DNA of 45,086 bases from a virus. This document shows positions 13,605-44,470 of the stretch, one piece after another (position 1 is the stretch's first letter; each line of letters starts with the position of its first letter). The translations under genes and the position numbers were made by a program. The stretch spans positions 1 through 45,086 of the IMG/VR virus record IMGVR_UViG_3300025132_000077. One strand, given 5' to 3'. Under the pieces are notes generated by a model. That model did no database searches and had not been told where the DNA came from. It saw only the letters and a program-made list of their open reading frames with translations.

Positions 13605-13967
13605 TTAATAACTCCACATTACGCCAGTTCCATTACTATCCAAACTGCGGTTGTCGATATGGATAAAACTATTAGCGATTCCAACACCGCCAAATCCCAT
13701 TTTAATAGCTTCTTGAACGATTTTATATTTCTGTATTCCGTTGGTGACTTTAATATCTGCTGCAATACCTTTGGCATGTGTTCCCGGTTTCTCCTTACGC
13801 TTTTCGATTGAGTGGTCAGGGCTTCTGTATCCACTTGTTATAATAAACGGAAAGCCACACGCTTCCCGCAGTTCATCGAGTCTGTGTATAAAGTCTATAC
13901 ACATCTCGTTTTCTCCTGTCTCTTGACAGTTGAAATCTTCTAGTTTAAAGTATTTGAATTGGCTCAC
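13605..13967 (-). CDS. Peptidase M15-family endolysin
   Basis: 120-residue zinc D,D-peptidase of the M15_3 type that would cut peptide cross-links in peptidoglycan. Motifs are TSGYRSPDHS (45-53), H64 in GTHAKGIAAD with D71, and FIHIDNR with H103; H64, D71 and H103 are the expected zinc ligands. The start is GTG at 13967, which overlaps the giant gene's stop as GTGA, giving translational coupling. With the 3TM holin next to it, this forms the lysis pair. Confidence 0.85.
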   Translation of the reverse strand: MSQFKYFKLEDFNCQETGENEMCIDFIHRLDELREACGFPFIITSGYRSPDHSIEKRKEKPGTHAKGIAADIKVTNGIQKYKIVQEAIKMGFGGVGIANSFIHIDNRSLDSNGTGVMWSY

Positions 13968-16900
13968 ATTAACACCCCACTTATGTTAAAGGTAAATCGT
14001 TTTTCAGGGTCATCGCTAACATCTTGAGCAGCGTGTACTAATTCACCATACTTATCTTTTGCATCTTTAGTTCTATCGCTCTTAGCAGAATCAAAGTCGT
14101 ATTTGTCTGGTAAGACTTGATACTTGCCGTCACCTAAGTCTTTAAAGTTAAATGCACCAATAGTTGTAAACATTTCAAACGATGGGTCAACCATAGAAGT
14201 CAACGCTAAGTCTACTAAATCTTGGTCTTCTCGCTTACCTTTGTAAAACTCTGAAGGTGCAGTGCCGTTTCTCATTAGAGGATAATCTCTGTACTGAACA
14301 CTTGTACTGCCTCGTGCCTTTGCATTTTCTATAGCAGTTTTAAGAACATCTTGCTGTTTAGTTCCAAAGCCCTCAACACGCACATCAGGCACTTCCATAT
14401 CTAATCCTAGCTTGTTACCTAGCATATAGCGAGTAAACTGTACCGCATTCTCAGGCAGAATATTTACACCTGCTCTAAGTTTACGTTTAGTTTCTCGCAG
14501 AATAGGCGGCAGTGTCTCGTCTTTTAAAGTTGTAATCTCTTCCTTAACAGTATCAACTAGCTCACCTGTTTTCTGTGCTATGCTACCGCCTACGTTGCCT
14601 ACAAATATCATTCCTTTCATGCTTGCTTCTTTAGCAGTATCAACAAACTCGCTTGTTTTTTCGGCTACAGTATCAGCTATTTCGCCTATCTGCTCCAAGC
14701 CTCCTGTGTCTCCTGTAGTTCCCGCAGTATTTTCTGCAGTCCTACCCTCTGAGCTAAAGTCTGCACTCAACACTCCATCAACAAAGTTTTTGAAACCTGA
14801 TAGGTCGCTTTCTTCTTGACGTAAAGCACCAGACATATTCTCTGCGGTTCTTCCTTGACCACCAAAGCTAGGCAGCCTAATTGCAGCTAATCTTTCTCTA
14901 AGAGTTTTCTTGGGTTCAGTACGCTCAACAACAGGCTCAGGAGTTTCAGAAATCTTAGGTTGACCTGTAGCACCAGTCATGTTTTCTGCGGTACGACCCC
15001 TAGAACCAAAGTCCATAGTTAAAAGCTTTTTAAGTATAGAACCTGTTTTAGTGGCTGATTCTGATACTGTGTCGGTAACTTTACCTACAGCGCCCGACAA
15101 GGTATTAGAAACACTCTCATAAAGTTCGCTAGGCTTAGTATCATATTCAACCTGTTCAATCTTAACTTCGGGAGTGGGGGCAACTATAGGCTCGGCTTCC
15201 TGTACCGCTTCTGCCTGCTGCACTGTTCCTGTTCCTTGAGGTTTTTCAAGCTTTAAAATATCTCCGGCATAGATTAAATCTACATCCTTAATATCGTTTA
15301 TTTCAGCTATTTCCTGTATAGTCATGCCTTGCTCTTCAGCAATCTTAGTAAGAGTATCTCCCCTCTTGATTACATATCCACCCTCAGAGAACATTGCAAG
15401 ACCTTTTAATATGTCTTCCCTCATTTTAGGAGTTATTTTAATTGTAGGCAATTTTACAGTTCCATCCCATCGCTGATATTCTACATCCTCAATTTCAACG
15501 CCATATTTTTTACCAAAGTTATTATTTAATAGTTTTATTAAAGTTTTATTATAAAAATCATCAAACTTTTGACCGCCATAATTAACTTCTATATCTTCTT
15601 CTAATCTTTGTACTCCTTTTGCATTAGGTTCTGCATTTAAAAGTTTTTCGGCTTTTTCCTTACCAAGTGATTTGTTTACAAATGTTTCAAATTCTTCTTT
15701 GCTGTCAAATATCTCAGTGTGTGTTGTTTTCTGTACAAACGGAGTATCCATACCATCTTCGGGTCTTGTTTTAAAGTTGGTATAGCCTTCAAAAACATAC
15801 TCTCCACTATTGGGTTCATAGTAAAATCCAACGCCATTATGCTCTTTTAGTTTATTGTTCCTAAGTTTTTGAATGCGACCAGTTGTAAGCGCAAGCTGCT
15901 CATATCCTTCTTTTGCTGCAATCATCATAGCTTGTTTTAGCCCTACTAAAGCCCACTTCTTTTCATCTTTTAGCGGTAAATTTGGAACTAATCTGCGCTT
16001 ACTGCCCATATCTTCAAAAGTTTGTGATAGCTCTAAATATTGTGTATGCACAGCTTCTCTGACTCTTTCAAAATATTGTATTTCCTTTCGAATGCGGTCA
16101 GCTCTAGGTGACTGTAATTCTTCAGCAGTCATATTTTCTAGAATATCTTCTAGGTCTTCAATCTCGTCACTGAAGCGGTCTATCTGAAAACCTAGTGTTT
16201 CTAAGTCTTCTTCAGTATTTCCTGCGTAATACTCTGCATCTGATTTAGCATATCCTGCACCCCTTTTTCCTGTAGCTGCTTGAGATTTATCAGACTGAAG
16301 CTCATCAATTAATAAAGTTCTTCTTAGATTTTCAGTTGGCGTTATATCAGCCAACCTTATATGCAATAAAGGATTTTTAATTGATGGAAAATGACCACTA
16401 TGTACATAATCTTTTTGTAACTTTTTAAATTTATCTTTTAAAGCAAGTACAACTTCTCTGTAGTTTTCAGTATCTTGCCCTTCAAAACTAAAATCCATGT
16501 GATGAGGTTGTGCCTTAAAATCTTTTCCGTGTACATATCTTTCTACATATTCGTCAAAAAAATCATTAAGTAATTTGTCATACTCAGCAGGAGAATCAAC
16601 AGCTAGGTCATCCATTAAATTTAATTGAAACGGATAATTTGCAGTCATAAACCTTTCAAAATCCTCGTCAATTCCGCTATTAAACATATCTTCGGCTTGA
16701 GGGTCAGTAGGAATGTCATCAGTTGCTTCATTTCTAAATTCTGGTGATTCGTCATCTGCACGTTTAGGTACTCTTCCAACATAAACATCATAGTCAAATC
16801 CGCTGTTTTCAAAAAAATCTACAACTTCTTCTCTAGTAACTTTAGGTTTATCTTTAAAATAGCTATTAGCGCCTGTCCACTCTAGCTCTTCTTGAGAAAC

Positions 16901-19900
16901 TTTGCCCTCAAGACGTTTTAACATTACTTCGCCTGTATTAACATTATCTTTAATCTTAGAGGCTTCTTTAGCTGCAAGACTAAAAAATCCAGAAGCTTGT
17001 TTGGGTGCAAAATAACTAGCAAGTTGTTTAGCTGCCTTGCCTCCTGCCGAAAATCTATGTCTTGGGTCATTCGGGTCAAAAGCTACAGCTTCAATAGACT
17101 TAAACTGTTGAGGGTCAAATGCAATATAAGAGAAGTCATCATCATTTATATAGCTTTTTTCTAATTTGTTTTGATATTTAATCCCATCATATCCAAAACC
17201 TTTTAACATATTTTGAACATCTATGTTTAATTCTATTCGCATTAACTCATATTCTATTTTATCTAGCGCTGTTTCTCTAACGTGAGTTTTTATCTCATAA
17301 GCTTTAGCCATAAACTTTTCTATTTCATCAATAGTTTCAGATGAAATTTTAGTTCCTGATGCTTTTAAGTTAGTTAAGAACTCTCTAGCGCCATCTTCTT
17401 CCATAAAGATTTCTACAGCATCCCAAGTTCCTGCAACATTCTCCATCTCATCATCAAAAGGCTTGTATAATAATGGTTTCTTAATATTAACAACGCCTTC
17501 TTCGATAATATAGTTATCTAAATTAACTTTATTGCCTTTTGACTCAACTGCTGTTACAATAGCATTTAGCATAGAATCATACTCTTCTTGAGTTAATTGA
17601 TTCTTTTTAACTGCATATAAATCGGCAGCTTGTCCTGAATCGAAATAATCAAAGAGCATATCTCTAAGTTTTATGTTATCTGCAGCACCTTTTGTTCCTA
17701 AGTGTGCACCCAGTTCTCGTGGCATTCCAAAAGACATGAAATAAGACACATCACTAAAGAATCGTTTTGCACGGAATATTCTTCTCTTAACTTGAGAGTC
17801 TTTTAAAAATGTTTCAATCTTAGAGTCTCGTTGAGCATCAGTCAATGTTACATCAAAAGAATCTTCAGGGGTTAATTTTCGTGGCGGTTTAAATTTTGTA
17901 AGGTCTACATTGCCTCGTGCTGCAATTTTTAGAAGGGCATTTTTAGCAACCTTAGTGGCTCCAACATCAGAAATAATACCGCCAAAGAACTCACCGCCTT
18001 TATGTTTTAGTCTTGACTCAACAAAATCATGTAAAAGGTCAATAGTGTCTTTATCAAAATTAGCAAGTGAAGCTTTACTTAATTCATCTTCATCTAAATC
18101 AATTTTCAATAATTTATAATTATTTTTAAATGTTGCAGAAACATCAGAAACAAGCTTATTCAACTGACCTGTAGGGTCAATTCTTTCTTTATTATGTTGG
18201 ATAAACTCTAAAGCCTGATAGTGGTCTTCATCAACAGATAGTTCATCTCGTGCTTCTGCAAACTTTACAAGAGCATCATCATAATCTGTAGCAGCTAGTG
18301 CAGCTTTTAGTTTTGGTTTAGACTCAACATCTGTTATTTTTAAATTTCTATTTTTAATAGAATTAACAACTAAAGCTTCAGCAAGAGCAATCGCATCTGT
18401 TTCATCAGCAGGATTTTGTACTATCTCATATACACCGCTTTCAATCTGTCTAGATAGGCGCTCAACTTCTTCGTTGCTCATTATATTATCAGTAGAGTTT
18501 GCCAAAGGTCTTGAAAGCTCGTCTGTAAACTCGTCTGCTGATTTTGCTTTTCGACCCAAGAAATCTACAAGAGTGCCTGCAACTTCGCCACCTAGCTTAT
18601 ATCCTGTTCTAGTTGCTCCGGGAGCTGTTGCTTCTACATCAAACTCCGGGATTAAAAAGTCGGTAAGCTTCTCTTGTTTTTCTCTTAATCCTCTTCGATA
18701 CTGTTTAACTCTCCAGTCTCCAAGAATATTTTTACCAAAGTATGAACCAGAAAGCACAGGAACTTTTGTGCCTAGTGTAGGTATAACGCCTTGCTGATAC
18801 AGACTCATGGCATCTGAACCTAGTGGGCCTAAAGGCATAGCTAAGTAAGAAGCAGAGTTTCTTGTATATTTTGCAGAAGTTCTTGCTCTATTAAGAGAAT
18901 CTAAAAGAAGGCCATTACCACCCCAACGAGCGATGGAATCATAAATTATTTCATCCGTATCTTTATTACGCTCACTTTCACCATTAGTTCTGAGATAGTT
19001 AGTATATCTTGCCATGCCTGTCATTATTGCAGCAGCAGGAATTATTTTTCCAAAAAGTCTTCCTCTTGGGTCTTTGATTGCTCCTTTAGCCATTCCTTTA
19101 AGAACAGTATTGCTAAATGCAGCAGGATAACTTAATAGTTGAAACAGAATAGATGTTTTAGGGTTAGCCATTAAGAAAGGTTTATTTCCCGCAAGTCCAG
19201 TAGGCTGTAGAATTACAGAGTTAGTATATCGTGCTGCTCCTGCTAAATATGAGTTTTTATAAAAATCATCTTCTACTTTAGCGCCACTCTTGTACCATTT
19301 TACAGCATCTTTATAATCTATACCAAGTTCAGCAAGCTCCCCTGCTTTTCGTTTGCCCAGTGAATCTAGCTCTCTGTTTCCAAATTTAGCTAAGAACTCA
19401 ATATTGCTTTGAATCATATTCTTTCCGCTTCTGTACGAAACATTCTGAACAAACTTAGTCCACTGGTCTAGAAAATTTAAACGGAAAAATTTATTACTTG
19501 CTTTTTGCATTGTTTCATTTATAAGAGCATCACCAGTAAGCCTATCTCCTAGCTGACCCATTTCCTGCTCAATATAAATACTAAAGTTTCTCATTTCAGC
19601 AAAAGCTTCTTTAGCAGTCAAGCCATGTTGATTTTGCAGTTTAGTTTCTAAATCTTTAGTAATTCTTTTGTGAGACATACTTAAAGCATCTCCCAACCCT
19701 TTTACTGAGTTGACAAAACCTGCCTTGCTAAGATTCAACATTATTTCTGTTAAACTAGATACAGTAGCCAAACCTAAGTAAGCTACTCTATTTACTAAGC
19801 TATACGCATCTGCAGCAGTTTGCACTTTTCTGCCGTAACGCTCAAGCCCCTCTCCAGTTTGAGTTCTATAAAGTTTTTCTAAATTAGCATACATGTTATT

Positions 19901-21868
19901 AGTAAACTTCTCGCCCTTACCTTCTACTTCTTTTTTGATTCTGGCGATATAGAATTTTTCAAAGTCTTTAAAATTGTTTACACCTAATACACGATGCTTA
20001 GCTAAAGACTTGCCTGCCTGAAAAGTGTAGGCGTGGAAAGTAGTCAAAACATCAGAGTTTAAGAACTCTTCAAAATCTGAGTCATTTCCAATAGTGTTAA
20101 TTTTTCTTTTAGCTGAAAAGAAATATCCAGAGCCGTTTCCGCTGTCGATTTGATTATCTAAGTCTAGCATGTTTTTTACAGTTCGTTGAGCACCTGCGGG
20201 GGTCATGCCTGCTTTATCAACAAAAAGCTTTGCAAGTTTTTCTGGATTAGCCTCAATAGCACTTCTGCTCCACATACGAGGAACATAGTTATCTGTCATT
20301 TCGTTGATGACTTTTATTTTTTGTAGTCTTGTACCCATGTCACTATACATTTCACGAATCTCTGCAGCAGCTCTATTGATAGCTTTGTTTACAGAATCAT
20401 CAAAGTTTGCGTGTTTTATGGGCGTGGGGCTTCTAAGACTTTTACTTAAAGCATCATTTACTTCGTCAGCAAACTTAGTAGAAAAATTACTTAAAGAAAG
20501 TTCTTCAACAATTTGCCTAAATGTTTCATTATATCTACCAGTTATTTCTCGCTGCACTTCAAACAAGTCTTTTTCAATAACTGTTTGTTGAGGAGTTAAA
20601 GGTTGATATTCTTCGGCAAACTCGTGATGCAGTTTTTTCTGCAACTGTCGAGCTGTTCCAGATAAAGAAACTAAAGGAGTTAGAATTCCTGCTGTTTTAC
20701 CATAAAAATTAGATGTTAAAGAAGCTGCCATGTTAAACAACGATTGTTGTATAGCTTTGCGCTTACCCTTTCTAGTCGGTTCGTTTTTAGCTGCATTTCT
20801 AATTTCAGAAAGAATTTCTTTTCTAGAACGCTCACCACCGCCTAAATCAGACACAAACTTGCTTACTGCTTGAACTACAGGGTCTTGAGGATTTGATTCA
20901 TCAAAATCAAACAACTCACCTTGAGTTCCTTCAGGAGCATCTGTGTCTATACGAGGCGTATCTATAGCAGCTAATATTTTTTCATCTACATCAGGCTCAA
21001 ACAGGTCTAGTTGTTTAACGCCTTCAAAATTTTCTGCATCTTCTTCTACTCTTTCAATCCTAAAGGGCTGTGGTTTATCAGTTTGAGTTTTGAGTTTACG
21101 TATACCCTTGCCTGCTAAAGAAAATCCTCCAACAAGAATAGGGCCAAACGCAGCGCTTATGCCTGTTATTTTAGCAACATCTTCCCAGTTTCTACCTTCT
21201 CCAGTTCCTAAAGTTTCAAAAAGGTCTTGTCTTAGGAGTTCATCGCCTCCTCCATAAAGACCTGAAATTAAAGATGCAGACTTGTATGGATTATTAACAG
21301 CAGCAGCAGTAGTAGCCTGCAACATGCTATATAGTTTTTTAGTGGCTTGTCTTTTAGCTGCAATAGAAGCGGTTTTAGTTGCAATAGCTCCTGTGCCTAA
21401 TGTAGTCACACCTGCACCAATAGACAGCAGTGTTTCTGGATTAAACACAAAGTCAGTTACATTGTCATAGATAGAGGTTGCCCATTGTCGAGCACCTTCA
21501 GGACTAACTTGCTCCCAACTTTTTAAAAGAAAATCTAAATCTTCTTTTACATCTTGTGGAGCATCTTGTAAATTATTTATTGCAGTAATTTTAGTTTCTA
21601 AGCGATTTTGAAAATCTCGCATGGTTTCATTAATATCGTCAGTGTTAAATGAACCTGCTGAGTCTAGTAGAAAATCACCCATTCCTCGTTGCTTGTTTAG
21701 ATAATCTGCAACATTTTCAGCTTTCATAACTACGATAGGGTTTTCCCTAAAATCGTCTGTATTGCTTTGACTTGTTAAAGGCCCAGTATCAAATAGTTCA
21801 TCATATGAATATGCGTACTCATCTGCGCCTGTTCGGATAACTTGTCCGTTTTTAAATTCAATTGCCAT
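13964..21868 (-). CDS. Giant internal virion/ejection protein (2634 aa) with ART-PolyVal-like and LysM segments
   Basis: 2634-residue polyvalent protein. Residues roughly 380-1060 resemble large internal core proteins such as T7 gp16 (QPTGLAGNKPFLMANPK near 890, then a hydrophobic stretch). Around 1385-1605 there is an ADP-ribosyltransferase-like (ART-PolyVal) pattern: HLGTKGAAD, VNIKKPLL, GYDGIKYQN, then IAFDPQQFKS. Near 1840-1870 the segment LLIDELQSD resembles the EIQSD segment of phage polyvalent proteins. A LysM (YVIKRGDTLTKIAEEQG...YAGDILKL) lies near 2163-2204, and three GRTAEN motifs lie near 2291, 2339 and 2375. It sits with other internal virion genes and is likely packaged and injected. 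AAAGGA precedes the ATG. Enzymatic activity is not shown. Confidence 0.85.
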   Translation of the reverse strand: MAIEFKNGQVIRTGADEYAYSYDELFDTGPLTSQSNTDDFRENPIVVMKAENVADYLNKQRGMGDFLLDSAGSFNTDDINETMRDFQNRLETKITAINNLQDAPQDVKEDLDFLLKSWEQVSPEGARQWATSIYDNVTDFVFNPETLLSIGAGVTTLGTGAIATKTASIAAKRQATKKLYSMLQATTAAAVNNPYKSASLISGLYGGGDELLRQDLFETLGTGEGRNWEDVAKITGISAAFGPILVGGFSLAGKGIRKLKTQTDKPQPFRIERVEEDAENFEGVKQLDLFEPDVDEKILAAIDTPRIDTDAPEGTQGELFDFDESNPQDPVVQAVSKFVSDLGGGERSRKEILSEIRNAAKNEPTRKGKRKAIQQSLFNMAASLTSNFYGKTAGILTPLVSLSGTARQLQKKLHHEFAEEYQPLTPQQTVIEKDLFEVQREITGRYNETFRQIVEELSLSNFSTKFADEVNDALSKSLRSPTPIKHANFDDSVNKAINRAAAEIREMYSDMGTRLQKIKVINEMTDNYVPRMWSRSAIEANPEKLAKLFVDKAGMTPAGAQRTVKNMLDLDNQIDSGNGSGYFFSAKRKINTIGNDSDFEEFLNSDVLTTFHAYTFQAGKSLAKHRVLGVNNFKDFEKFYIARIKKEVEGKGEKFTNNMYANLEKLYRTQTGEGLERYGRKVQTAADAYSLVNRVAYLGLATVSSLTEIMLNLSKAGFVNSVKGLGDALSMSHKRITKDLETKLQNQHGLTAKEAFAEMRNFSIYIEQEMGQLGDRLTGDALINETMQKASNKFFRLNFLDQWTKFVQNVSYRSGKNMIQSNIEFLAKFGNRELDSLGKRKAGELAELGIDYKDAVKWYKSGAKVEDDFYKNSYLAGAARYTNSVILQPTGLAGNKPFLMANPKTSILFQLLSYPAAFSNTVLKGMAKGAIKDPRGRLFGKIIPAAAIMTGMARYTNYLRTNGESERNKDTDEIIYDSIARWGGNGLLLDSLNRARTSAKYTRNSASYLAMPLGPLGSDAMSLYQQGVIPTLGTKVPVLSGSYFGKNILGDWRVKQYRRGLREKQEKLTDFLIPEFDVEATAPGATRTGYKLGGEVAGTLVDFLGRKAKSADEFTDELSRPLANSTDNIMSNEEVERLSRQIESGVYEIVQNPADETDAIALAEALVVNSIKNRNLKITDVESKPKLKAALAATDYDDALVKFAEARDELSVDEDHYQALEFIQHNKERIDPTGQLNKLVSDVSATFKNNYKLLKIDLDEDELSKASLANFDKDTIDLLHDFVESRLKHKGGEFFGGIISDVGATKVAKNALLKIAARGNVDLTKFKPPRKLTPEDSFDVTLTDAQRDSKIETFLKDSQVKRRIFRAKRFFSDVSYFMSFGMPRELGAHLGTKGAADNIKLRDMLFDYFDSGQAADLYAVKKNQLTQEEYDSMLNAIVTAVESKGNKVNLDNYIIEEGVVNIKKPLLYKPFDDEMENVAGTWDAVEIFMEEDGAREFLTNLKASGTKISSETIDEIEKFMAKAYEIKTHVRETALDKIEYELMRIELNIDVQNMLKGFGYDGIKYQNKLEKSYINDDDFSYIAFDPQQFKSIEAVAFDPNDPRHRFSAGGKAAKQLASYFAPKQASGFFSLAAKEASKIKDNVNTGEVMLKRLEGKVSQEELEWTGANSYFKDKPKVTREEVVDFFENSGFDYDVYVGRVPKRADDESPEFRNEATDDIPTDPQAEDMFNSGIDEDFERFMTANYPFQLNLMDDLAVDSPAEYDKLLNDFFDEYVERYVHGKDFKAQPHHMDFSFEGQDTENYREVVLALKDKFKKLQKDYVHSGHFPSIKNPLLHIRLADITPTENLRRTLLIDELQSDKSQAATGKRGAGYAKSDAEYYAGNTEEDLETLGFQIDRFSDEIEDLEDILENMTAEELQSPRADRIRKEIQYFERVREAVHTQYLELSQTFEDMGSKRRLVPNLPLKDEKKWALVGLKQAMMIAAKEGYEQLALTTGRIQKLRNNKLKEHNGVGFYYEPNSGEYVFEGYTNFKTRPEDGMDTPFVQKTTHTEIFDSKEEFETFVNKSLGKEKAEKLLNAEPNAKGVQRLEEDIEVNYGGQKFDDFYNKTLIKLLNNNFGKKYGVEIEDVEYQRWDGTVKLPTIKITPKMREDILKGLAMFSEGGYVIKRGDTLTKIAEEQGMTIQEIAEINDIKDVDLIYAGDILKLEKPQGTGTVQQAEAVQEAEPIVAPTPEVKIEQVEYDTKPSELYESVSNTLSGAVGKVTDTVSESATKTGSILKKLLTMDFGSRGRTAENMTGATGQPKISETPEPVVERTEPKKTLRERLAAIRLPSFGGQGRTAENMSGALRQEESDLSGFKNFVDGVLSADFSSEGRTAENTAGTTGDTGGLEQIGEIADTVAEKTSEFVDTAKEASMKGMIFVGNVGGSIAQKTGELVDTVKEEITTLKDETLPPILRETKRKLRAGVNILPENAVQFTRYMLGNKLGLDMEVPDVRVEGFGTKQQDVLKTAIENAKARGSTSVQYRDYPLMRNGTAPSEFYKGKREDQDLVDLALTSMVDPSFEMFTTIGAFNFKDLGDGKYQVLPDKYDFDSAKSDRTKDAKDKYGELVHAAQDVSDDPEKRFTFNISGVLM

Positions 21869-42373: not shown

Positions 42374-42746
42374 CTATTATTACTTCCTTTTTGGCGGGGA
42401 TAACAAACAAACCTCCACCTGAGTTTACGTTCACATCTAGCCTTTCGGTTTTACCTAGTCCTACTCTATCTAATATTTGTTGTGCTGCCTGTATACGCAT
42501 ATTAGCTTGTGGGACAGGTTCGGGGCTATCCATAATCTGAATTAGTTTAGAAGCTGCTTTAGGCGCATTGAGAGCCATTATGTTTGTAGCTATATCAAGT
42601 ATCTCAGTCTTGAGAGCTTTGACTACAGCATAATGTGTGCCTTCAGCATAGCCTGCTAACTCCGCTGCAGCTTTTGTATCTCCACCGCAAGCAGGAAGAT
42701 TATCAAGAAAAGCTTGTTGTCTTGTAGTTAGTTGTTTATCAGGCAT
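42348..42746 (-). CDS. terS: Terminase small subunit
   Basis: 132-residue DNA-recognition subunit of the packaging terminase. The N-terminal helix-turn-helix (LTTRQQAFLDNLPACGGDTK, then AAAELAGYAEGTHYAVVKALK) is the usual TerS form. A helical oligomerisation part with MDSPEPVPQANMRIQAAQQILDR and a beta-like C-terminal tail follow. It is the first gene of the minus-strand late operon, about 40 bp from a consensus promoter (42783-42811), with GAGAAAG upstream of the ATG. Confidence 0.8.
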   Translation of the reverse strand: MPDKQLTTRQQAFLDNLPACGGDTKAAAELAGYAEGTHYAVVKALKTEILDIATNIMALNAPKAASKLIQIMDSPEPVPQANMRIQAAQQILDRVGLGKTERLDVNVNSGGGLFVIPAKKEVIIDGEYTENE

Positions 42747-42782: not shown

Positions 42783-42811
42783 ATTATACAGGTAATATTG
42801 AGTTTTGTCAA
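42783..42811 (-). promoter_or_regulatory. Consensus sigma70 promoter for the late operon
   Basis: Reading the minus strand: TTGACA (42811-42806), 17-bp spacer, TATAAT (42788-42783), both hexamers perfect, with AAAAC upstream as in the other promoters. It fires toward terS and is the only strong promoter I find for the 30-kb late operon. A CTATATATACTATAT stretch (42770-42784) overlaps the -10 and start region and recurs at 42841. Confidence 0.85.
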
Positions 42812-42900: not shown

Positions 42901-42929
42901 TTGACAAAAGGCGAAATCCAGTGTATAAT
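42901..42929 (+). promoter_or_regulatory. Consensus sigma70 promoter, divergent
   Basis: TTGACA (42901-42906), 17-bp spacer, TATAAT (42924-42929), both perfect, pointing away from terS, with 89 bp between the two -35 elements. It would transcribe the non-coding hairpin region and the small plus-strand genes from 43731. Confidence 0.85.
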
Positions 42930-42961
42930 ATATATTAAGCCCACCGGGGTTTATAGCATAT

Positions 42962-43021: not shown

Positions 43022-43182
43022 TCCTTTCCTCTTCCCTTTAAAGCCCTTGGAAGCCGCCCGACTTCCCAGAACTTGCCCCTCCCTTCAAAGACTTTTAAGC
43101 TGCGGCACAATCTGGTTTACATGGCAAATCTCCGTAAAATGTGTAAGATTGTGTATATATCCCAGTACCCCCCCATGGCAGC

Positions 43183-43637
43183 TTGCCCCACACTTTGAAG
43201 TTCCTCTTAGGAACTTAAAAGTGATGGGGCAAAGACTCAAAAGTCTCCCAAAACTTTAAAGTTCCTATGGGGAACTTTAAAGTTTTGGGAGACTTTCAAA
43301 ATCTTCCAAGACTTTTAAGAAGCTCTATGGAGCTTTTAAAAGTCTTGGAAGATTTCCGTGCCTGCCTGTGAAGACTTTTAAAGTCTTTAGAGATTTTCTA
43401 GTTTACAAAAACTAGAGGAACTCAAAAAATCTTTAAAGCTTTAGCTTTCTTAAAAATCTCCAACATCTTCAACGACTTACCAGATTTTTGAGCAAGCTCA
43501 ACTTGAGTCTTCAAAGACTTTCAAAGTCTTCATTTTTTTTTATTATTTTAATGGAAATCCGTAGGATTTCTGGCACTTTTTAAACCCCTAGCCCTTTAAA
43601 ACCCTTAAAGGTTTTAAAGGGCTAGGGGTTTATTTAT
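43183..43637 (+). other. Array of long inverted repeats (non-coding)
   Basis: No credible gene lies between 42747 and 43730. This part holds successive long hairpins: 43183-43232 (22 pairs, one mismatch, one bulge), 43240-43296 (26-bp perfect stem), 43299-43355 (26 pairs with one bulge), 43371-43387 (8-bp arms) and 43581-43632 (23-bp perfect stem). The second and third share a TATG loop core. Several arms contain variants of the ACTTTAAAGT palindrome, but full stems differ in sequence, so they are not copies of one element. They lie downstream of the promoter at 42901 and may form a structured RNA or cruciform DNA. Confidence 0.8.
43514..43540 (+). terminator. Hairpin plus T tract
   Basis: AAGACTTT, one base, AAAGTCTT (43514-43530), then CA and eight or more Ts. 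It has the form of a rho-independent terminator with an A/T-rich stem and would end a short transcript of about 600 nt started at 42936. Confidence 0.5.
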
Positions 43638-43725
43638 TAATCTCTCTAGTCAGGGAAGAAAAAAATACTTTGTGAGTTCTTACGAACAAAGTATTTTTTT
43701 ATTCCTTAACTGACTAGAGAGATTA
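43638..43725 (+). promoter_or_regulatory. Long hairpin with GAGTTCTTACGA loop upstream of the 43731 gene
   Basis: Arms pair over 15 bp at the base (43638-43652 with 43711-43725), then, past a small internal loop, over 20 positions with one mismatch (43654-43673 with 43686-43705). The 12-nt loop is GAGTTCTTACGA (43674-43685). The 3' arm contains the GAGAG purine stretch 9-13 nt before the ATG at 43731, so a folded RNA would hide the ribosome-binding site. The same loop caps a different stem at 44423-44470. Confidence 0.7.
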
Positions 43726-43730
43726 AAATT

Positions 43731-44168
43731 ATGGCGACTTCAAACTTCGGCAAAATCGACCCAAATCAAATAGCAACTCAAAGACAAGTCTATGGAGTGG
43801 CTTGCCACTTTGCTAATATCTATGCCAAATCTCCTTCAGAGAGATTTGGAGCAACAAAAATGTTCCATGCCATTCTGAATAAGCATTATTCAGCTTCTGA
43901 TAGCTTTATGACTCATTCTGATGTCTCAGAATGGAGAGAATGGGATTGCATTCCAGACCAGTTTCTTTCAATGATTTCAAAGAAATCAGCAGTTAAAAAA
44001 GCTAAAACAAAAAGAGCTTCCAAGAAGCCTACGGCTTCCAAGAAGTCTACGACTTCCAAAAAATCTAATGCTACTTTGACTCAACGAGTTGAGGCAATGG
44101 AAGCCAATCAATCTCTACTTGTAGAGACTCAAACTAAAATCTTGGAGCTTCTTGAAGCTCTTAAATAA
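43731..44168 (+). CDS. Lys-rich repeat protein with C-terminal coiled coil
   Basis: 145-residue protein. Residues 1-82 form an uncharacterised, probably globular part (FGKIDPNQIATQRQVYGVAC, then FGATKMFHAILNKH). Residues about 85-112 are a Lys/Ser/Ala/Thr tract built on SKK units, encoded by 18-bp tandem repeats at 44016-44069. The end (LTQRVEAMEANQSLLVETQT) is a coiled coil. The basic linker could bind nucleic acid, and the coiled coil could oligomerise. It is the first gene after the hairpin array and ends before a textbook terminator. No family recognised. Confidence 0.65.
   Translation: MATSNFGKIDPNQIATQRQVYGVACHFANIYAKSPSERFGATKMFHAILNKHYSASDSFMTHSDVSEWREWDCIPDQFLSMISKKSAVKKAKTKRASKKPTASKKSTTSKKSNATLTQRVEAMEANQSLLVETQTKILELLEALK
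44016..44069 (+). repeat. 18-bp tandem repeats encoding SKK tracts
   Basis: Three consecutive 18-bp units: GCTTCCAAGAAGCCTACG, GCTTCCAAGAAGTCTACG and a diverged ACTTCCAAAAAATCTAAT. They encode the ASKKPT / ASKKST / TSKKSN stretch of the Lys-rich protein, and copy number could vary by slippage. Confidence 0.8.
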
Positions 44169-44186
44169 AATTAAATAAATCTATTC

Positions 44187-44209
44187 GGGAGCTTCGGCTC
44201 CCTTTTTTT
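44187..44209 (+). terminator. Rho-independent terminator
   Basis: GGGAGC, a TTCG tetraloop, GCTCCC and seven Ts, 18 nt after the stop of the Lys-rich protein gene. This is the clearest terminator in the window, and it isolates that gene as its own transcription unit. Confidence 0.92.
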
Positions 44210-44246
44210 GTCTTAAATAAATTCTATTTTAAAAGGATATAGATAT

Positions 44247-44411
44247 ATGTTTATTGTTTCTTTTGATGGTAATGCTATGGTTTGTGAGACTCAGCAAGAG
44301 GCTATAGATATAGTAGACTCTTTAACTCAAGATGGATATAACTATATAACAGTTAGCCACAATCAGCCATTAGATGTAGAGGATATGGCTGAGATAGATA
44401 TAGAGATTTAA
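44247..44411 (+). CDS. Small acidic hypothetical protein (54 aa)
   Basis: 54-residue acidic protein (MFIVSFDGNAMVCETQQEAI...), with AAGGA at 44233-44237, 9 nt before the ATG. The pattern of two strands around one helix is suggestive but no family is recognised. It lies between the terminator at 44187 and the second shared-loop hairpin. Confidence 0.55.
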   Translation: MFIVSFDGNAMVCETQQEAIDIVDSLTQDGYNYITVSHNQPLDVEDMAEIDIEI

Positions 44412-44422
44412 ATATATATAAA

Positions 44423-44470
44423 ATAAACTTCTTAGTTAGTGAGTTCTTACGAACTAACTAAGAAGTTTAT
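44423..44470 (+). promoter_or_regulatory. Second hairpin with GAGTTCTTACGA loop
   Basis: Perfect 18-bp stem (44423-44440 with 44453-44470) closed by the same 12-nt loop, GAGTTCTTACGA, as the hairpin at 43638-43725, including the flanking GT and AC. The stems are otherwise unrelated. It follows the 54-aa gene by 11 nt and precedes the 44538 gene. A T tract is absent, so simple termination is unlikely. Confidence 0.7.

Follow-up and report, generated by a model that had tools for sequence, protein, structure and literature searches.

What does a cluster of long hairpins do in the DNA that precedes the first rightward gene of a marine phage? The window analysed here, the whole 45,086-nucleotide stretch of IMG/VR record IMGVR_UViG_3300025132_000077, represents 45 kb of the genome of an HMO-2011-type marine podovirus whose large terminase (TerL) is 70% identical to that of pelagiphage HTVC115P and about 47-50% identical to those of roseophages and HMO-2011. 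Early genes run rightward and late genes leftward, and 984 bp separate the small terminase gene terS (5' end at 42746, leftward) from the first rightward gene, here called GP1 (start at 43731). The two ends of the window (1 and 45086) do not overlap, and since cultured relatives measure 53-55 kb, the contig probably lacks some of the early region. Positions 13964-21868 encode a 2634-residue virion protein with a LysM domain, which matches an endolysin-annotated phage family and in which RNA polymerase motifs were not found.

The transcription unit of GP1

Two perfect sigma70 promoters lie back to back inside the 984-bp gap. The one on the minus strand (42783-42811) matches TTGACA-17-TATAAT at 12 of 12 positions and is directed at the terminase and late genes; it was absent from the first-pass annotation of the locus. 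The leader promoter on the plus strand (42901-42929) also matches the consensus at 12 of 12 positions with 17-bp spacing, and its -10 region recurs in relatives. An earlier statement that a consensus promoter stands upstream of the array thus holds, but the promoter lies about 250 nt 5' of the first hairpin. The leader transcript would start at about 42936, and the untranslated leader, taken from the promoter to the GP1 start, comprises about 795 nt.

GP1 (43731-44168, plus strand) encodes 145 residues that form a conserved 80-residue helical N-terminal domain, a lysine-rich, disordered and histone-H1-like stretch of variable length, and a C-terminal coiled coil. The protein matched no known family or fold, and a peptide-pattern scan confirmed no relatives. 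Downstream of the gene lies an intrinsic terminator (GGGAGCTTCGGCTCCC-T7, 44187-44209, plus strand). Because this G+C-rich hairpin with its T-run follows GP1 in the window and in seven relatives, leader and GP1 are regarded as one unit.

Architecture of the leader

All leader elements are given on the plus strand. Comparison with relatives defines a conserved leader start, E1 (AGCCCACCGGGG, 42938-42949), and the most conserved non-coding island, E2 (43097-43188), which shows 82-91% identity over ten relatives. The reading frame of E2 is not kept: its C-run varies in length and shifts the frame, one relative (L012) has an early stop, and E2 was therefore rejected as a leader peptide. The C-run itself (CCCCCCC, 43168-43174) is replaced by GGGGGG in L012, L035, L043, L048, L072 and L168, which looks like a short segment inverted in place. 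In bacterial genomes, E2 gave 12 scattered matches in unrelated genomes, about the chance level.

The array begins with hairpin 1 (43183-43232; 22 bp, imperfect), hairpin 2 (43240-43296; 26 bp, perfect, loop TATGG) and hairpin 3 (43299-43355; 20 bp, perfect, plus an inner stem past a bulge, with a compensated AC->TT change in L012). Hairpin 4 (43397-43416; 8 bp, TCTAGTTT-ACAA-AAACTAGA) is conserved in the sequence itself, and hairpin 5 (43443-43498) encloses the conserved CTTCAACGACTTAC. Segments 43369-43393 and 43508-43532 are complementary over 25 nt and constitute the 5' and 3' strands of a candidate long-range helix, the former being also able to fold locally. The leader closes with hairpin A (43581-43632; 23 bp, perfect) and hairpin B (43637-43726), a long stem with a 5' bulge and a GTTC/GAAC tip, which contains the GP1 Shine-Dalgarno site in its 3' arm and ends 4 nt 5' of the start codon. 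A second hairpin with a tip of the hairpin B type (GAGTTCTTACGA) on a different stem is located at 44423-44470, and an intergenic hairpin of the early region (768-808) precedes the METLFN gene, where relatives have tip-motif hairpins; both are on the plus strand. The five stems of the first-pass annotation, which correspond to hairpins 1 to 4 and A, are all present, while hairpin B, the two hairpins outside the leader and the 25-nt complementarity had not been listed.

According to an ungapped stem finder (cut-off score >=11), the 45-kb window contains 8 long hairpins, 7 of which fall within 43191-44470. Dinucleotide shuffles of the 1.6-kb region (n = 200) had no hairpin in 193 cases and one in 7, and shuffles of the whole window (n = 6) had 0-1 each; the cluster is far beyond chance. 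The 793-nt leader folds with -315.5 kcal/mol, compared to -171 +/- 8 for its shuffles (z = -18). The opposite strand reaches z = -16, close to this value, so folding energy alone cannot name the strand.

Conservation among relatives

Relatives were gathered by scanning viral contigs for the terminase and for two DNA patterns; this yielded 35 distinct leaders, and E2 is common to them. Leader relatives share the promoter -10 region, the start AGCCC.CCGGG, the roughly 90 nt of E2, CTAGTTTACAAAACTAG and CTTCAACGACTTAC. The order of elements, in which conserved single-strand islands are followed by an array of variable hairpins and then by the terminal hairpins A and B, is preserved in at least 31 distinct relatives, and in the close clade A and B are followed by GP1 wherever the contig extends that far. 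Between E2 and A the hairpins differ in number and sequence, being gained and lost freely; folding of a whole-leader alignment gave little because hairpin number and length differ.

Long perfect hairpins like those of the array were not seen in the stretches inspected of five cultured relatives (HTVC115P, HTVC103P, HTVC033P, HMO-2011 and CRP-1; TerL about 47-70% identical), and phages of the group can thus do without the element. A nucleotide search with 42.0-45.1 kb matched no named phage. Among Rfam covariance models, GOLLD, ROOL and OLE included, none matched the leader at its gathering score, and sub-threshold matches, mostly to miRNA models, were rejected as generic long-hairpin artefacts. 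Contigs of relatives have 50 ends in the 5 kb that precede terL, and 30 of these lie 600-1750 bp upstream of the gene. Hairpins or local hypervariability have probably broken the assemblies there, genome ends being a less likely cause.

Paired changes in hairpins A and B

The first-pass annotation took stems that differ and still pair as a sign of selection on structure, and pointed to compensatory changes among relatives as the check. Such changes are abundant. The 15 distinct forms of A, all fully Watson-Crick, and the 23 distinct forms of B together hold 826 Watson-Crick pairs and 11 mismatches, none of which is G-T or A-C. A raw mismatch count is a weak test when taken alone, since the stem finder also returns nearly pure Watson-Crick stems from E. 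coli rRNA, and the argument therefore rests on tree- and column-based counts. With E2 and GP1 as the basis of the tree, parsimony over few, related sequences with A-T-rich stems gives 68 two-sided changes from one Watson-Crick pair to another in A and B, against about 11 one-sided changes. For the 18-bp form of hairpin A (19 sequences), 12 of 12 changes on the tree affect both arms. The seven distinct 41-nt forms of A have 7 pairs changed on both sides and none on one side, with all cells paired. None of 500 shuffles reached the covariation score of A, and every slid version scored lower.

How did the pairing survive so many changes? Template switching, in which one arm serves the polymerase as template for the other, is known to perfect quasi-palindromes (PMC8794818, PMC7202029). 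In the window's relatives the paired changes occur in one step, without single-arm intermediates (the 68 against about 11), and their spectrum resembles that of single mutations, with no enrichment of G-U-accessible transitions. Transitions make up 24 of the 68 double changes (35%) and transversions 65%; with the spectrum of unpaired and coding sites, where the transition share is 0.43-0.52, two independent hits would give about 0.63 (p = 3e-6). In rRNA, 61% of instantaneous changes belong to the G-U-accessible class, and two-step changes have 78.5% G-U involvement (PMC8794818). The template-switch-maintained RNA hairpins of that study are similar to A and B in their simultaneous compensating changes, perfect stems and short loops, but they come from rRNA and RNA genes with the 61% G-U-accessible share, whereas those described here show 35% transitions and almost no G-U. 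The pattern in A and B is thus apparently the signature of replication template switching, which would renew the pairing at the DNA level.

Template switching yields paired changes without selection, and kept pairing alone is therefore no proof that structure is selected; of the earlier argument, the compensated changes stand and the step from them to selection does not. Better functional evidence is provided by the conserved position, the conserved tip motif, the Shine-Dalgarno site that is predicted to be buried in each of the 31 genomes, and the exchange of hairpin and promoter. In the sister clade, a longer-range helix has G-U over A-C cells at 36:10 on the rightward strand (cells, not independent events), an excess that fits the expectation for RNA.

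Predicted burial of the ribosome site and exchange for a promoter

In genomes with hairpin B, the predicted fold leaves the GP1 Shine-Dalgarno site a mean unpaired probability of 0.02 (maximum 0.15) and thus buries it in all 31. For comparison, 40 other genes of the window have a mean of 0.55 and a minimum of 0.24, and the value for GP1 in promoter-type relatives is 0.57.

Sister phages carry TTGACA-N17-TAGCTT immediately 5' of GP1. A second RNA fold suspected at this place ("module K") was rejected, as it is this promoter. Among 51 distinct regions upstream of GP1, 30 have the hairpin only, 17 the promoter only (a number inflated because some of these regions were collected by means of the motif itself), 4 have neither and none has both; the mutual exclusion persists among loci found by terminase. 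The second early gene (YSQR gene, MFxTHCKAVQEYSQR) tends the same way: 25 regions have the hairpin only, 7 the promoter only, 2 both and 18 neither. The hairpins before GP1, the YSQR gene and the METLFN gene have in common a tip with a bulge and GTTC-N4-GAAC, while their outer stems are unrelated. Those before the YSQR and METLFN genes stop 9-64 nt short of the start, so burial of the ribosome-binding site is not common to all copies of the tip hairpin. The sister clade has a recurrent promoter-like motif upstream of several early genes, TTGACA-N17-TAGCTT-(G/T)GAAA(A/T)CGTCAAA, and this extended form stands before GP1 and the second early gene in L030, L043, L168, L183, L186 and others. Its inverted TTGAC/GTCAA flank is possibly an operator.

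A proposed structured and processed early leader

We hypothesize that the locus is a short early unit, in which a host-type sigma70 promoter would drive the leader of about 795 nt, then GP1, up to the intrinsic terminator. Hairpin B would hold the GP1 ribosome-binding site in a long helix, leaving the full-length transcript untranslated until the helix is opened or cut. Tip hairpins would provide each gene with a translatable 5' end of its own, for which the sister clade would use a promoter instead. Most probably, host RNase III would cleave the long stems, as it does those of T7 early mRNA; the enzyme is the obvious candidate because the stems measure 17-31 bp, and a cut in hairpin B would also release the GP1 ribosome site. 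Template switching could copy one arm onto the other, so that the stems stay perfect while their letters drift. We give an even chance to this reading as a whole, that is, a structured early leader in which B locks the GP1 site, which is processed by RNase III and which mends itself at the DNA level. The architecture, the predicted burial, the hairpin-promoter exchange and the one-step paired changes come from comparison of genomes, and from these we infer transcription, RNase III cutting and the translational effect. Of the functions first proposed for the array, a structured RNA is the best supported, in the form of a leader that is presumably transcribed. A wider version appears distinctly unlikely: the hairpins of GP1 and of two or more further early genes would form a regulon under a single factor, from phage or host, that binds their common tip and opens, cuts or holds them in place of the sister-phage promoter, and about 700 nt of leader would be a stable RNA in its own right and the first of its class.

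The element would work like a phage hairpin that locks a ribosome-binding site, combined with early-mRNA processing hairpins. RNase III sites of T7 early mRNA (R1.1 and others) are likewise long hairpins between early genes of the same direction, with stems long enough for RNase III, a bulge close to the tip and recurrence at several genes, and long intergenic hairpins were indeed found at several genes of the early region here. The T7 sites have an internal loop. In contrast, the hairpins of the window have a small 5'-side bulge and putative cleavage, and one copy (B) buries a ribosome-binding site. GOLLD, ROOL and OLE, large ornate RNAs known from phages and bacteria (PMC12286853), resemble the leader in being phage-borne and structured over hundreds of bases with conserved unpaired islands; the leader differs from them in lacking an Rfam match, in its variable hairpin sequences and in running into a coding gene.

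Alternative explanations

Could hairpin B be a timing switch instead? In T4 genes e, soc, 49 and I-TevI, hairpins sequester the ribosome-binding site (PMC3014915), which is locked in the helix of the longer transcript only. By the same logic, B would lock read-through RNA, and a promoter inside the hairpin would supply an unlocked short transcript at another time. The predicted burial in 31 of 31 genomes agrees with this main rival, as does the promoter of promoter-type relatives, whose transcript would begin just before GP1. However, inspection by eye across variants recognised no conserved sigma70-like -10/-35 in the segment from the B tip to the Shine-Dalgarno site, and at other genes the tip hairpins leave the ribosome-binding site uncovered. 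Compared with the T4 hairpins, the stem is much longer and follows about 700 nt of structured leader. We regard a switch of this type as unlikely. A DNA-level role, in which hairpins or cruciforms serve replication (origin or primer site) or act as an operator or a DNA-hairpin promoter, would suit the lack of a G-U preference in the local stems on either strand, the exchange with a promoter, and the GC-skew minimum at the divergent junction. That skew is confounded by gene direction, though, and the burial of the ribosome site and the G-U excess of the long-range helix indicate RNA. An N4-like virion RNA polymerase, the prerequisite of an N4-type DNA-hairpin promoter, was not found within the 45-kb fragment, the 2634-residue protein matching a LysM/endolysin-type virion protein, and the DNA-level role seems distinctly unlikely.

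A packaging or genome-end signal is very unlikely indeed: the array adjoins terS, and this 1.15-kb region takes in 30 of the 50 upstream ends of relatives' contigs, but such clusters of ends also arise where assemblies break at hairpins and strain variation, tip hairpins also occur far from terS, and the window has no end repeats. The origin and packaging options of the first-pass annotation thus gain no support. The hairpins may also be mostly neutral palindromes, created and perfected by template switching in untranslated DNA and functionless, since mutation alone predicts perfect pairing and one-step paired changes (PMC8794818, PMC7202029) and the mid-array hairpins come and go freely. Against this stand the identical position of A and B in all 31 genomes, the preserved tip bulge, the predicted burial throughout the hairpin type and the high conservation of the islands, and neutrality seems very improbable.

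Significance

A structured leader of this kind appears to be unreported in an abundant marine phage group; a genomics paper on HMO-2011-type phages (PMC9038755) contains no mention of hairpin, promoter, intergenic or noncoding. The leader is a clean natural case of one-step compensated pair changes, in which covariation alone is an unsafe proof of RNA function. The exchange of a hairpin for a promoter at the same genes offers a testable pair of ways in which these phages may supply a gene with its own message end.
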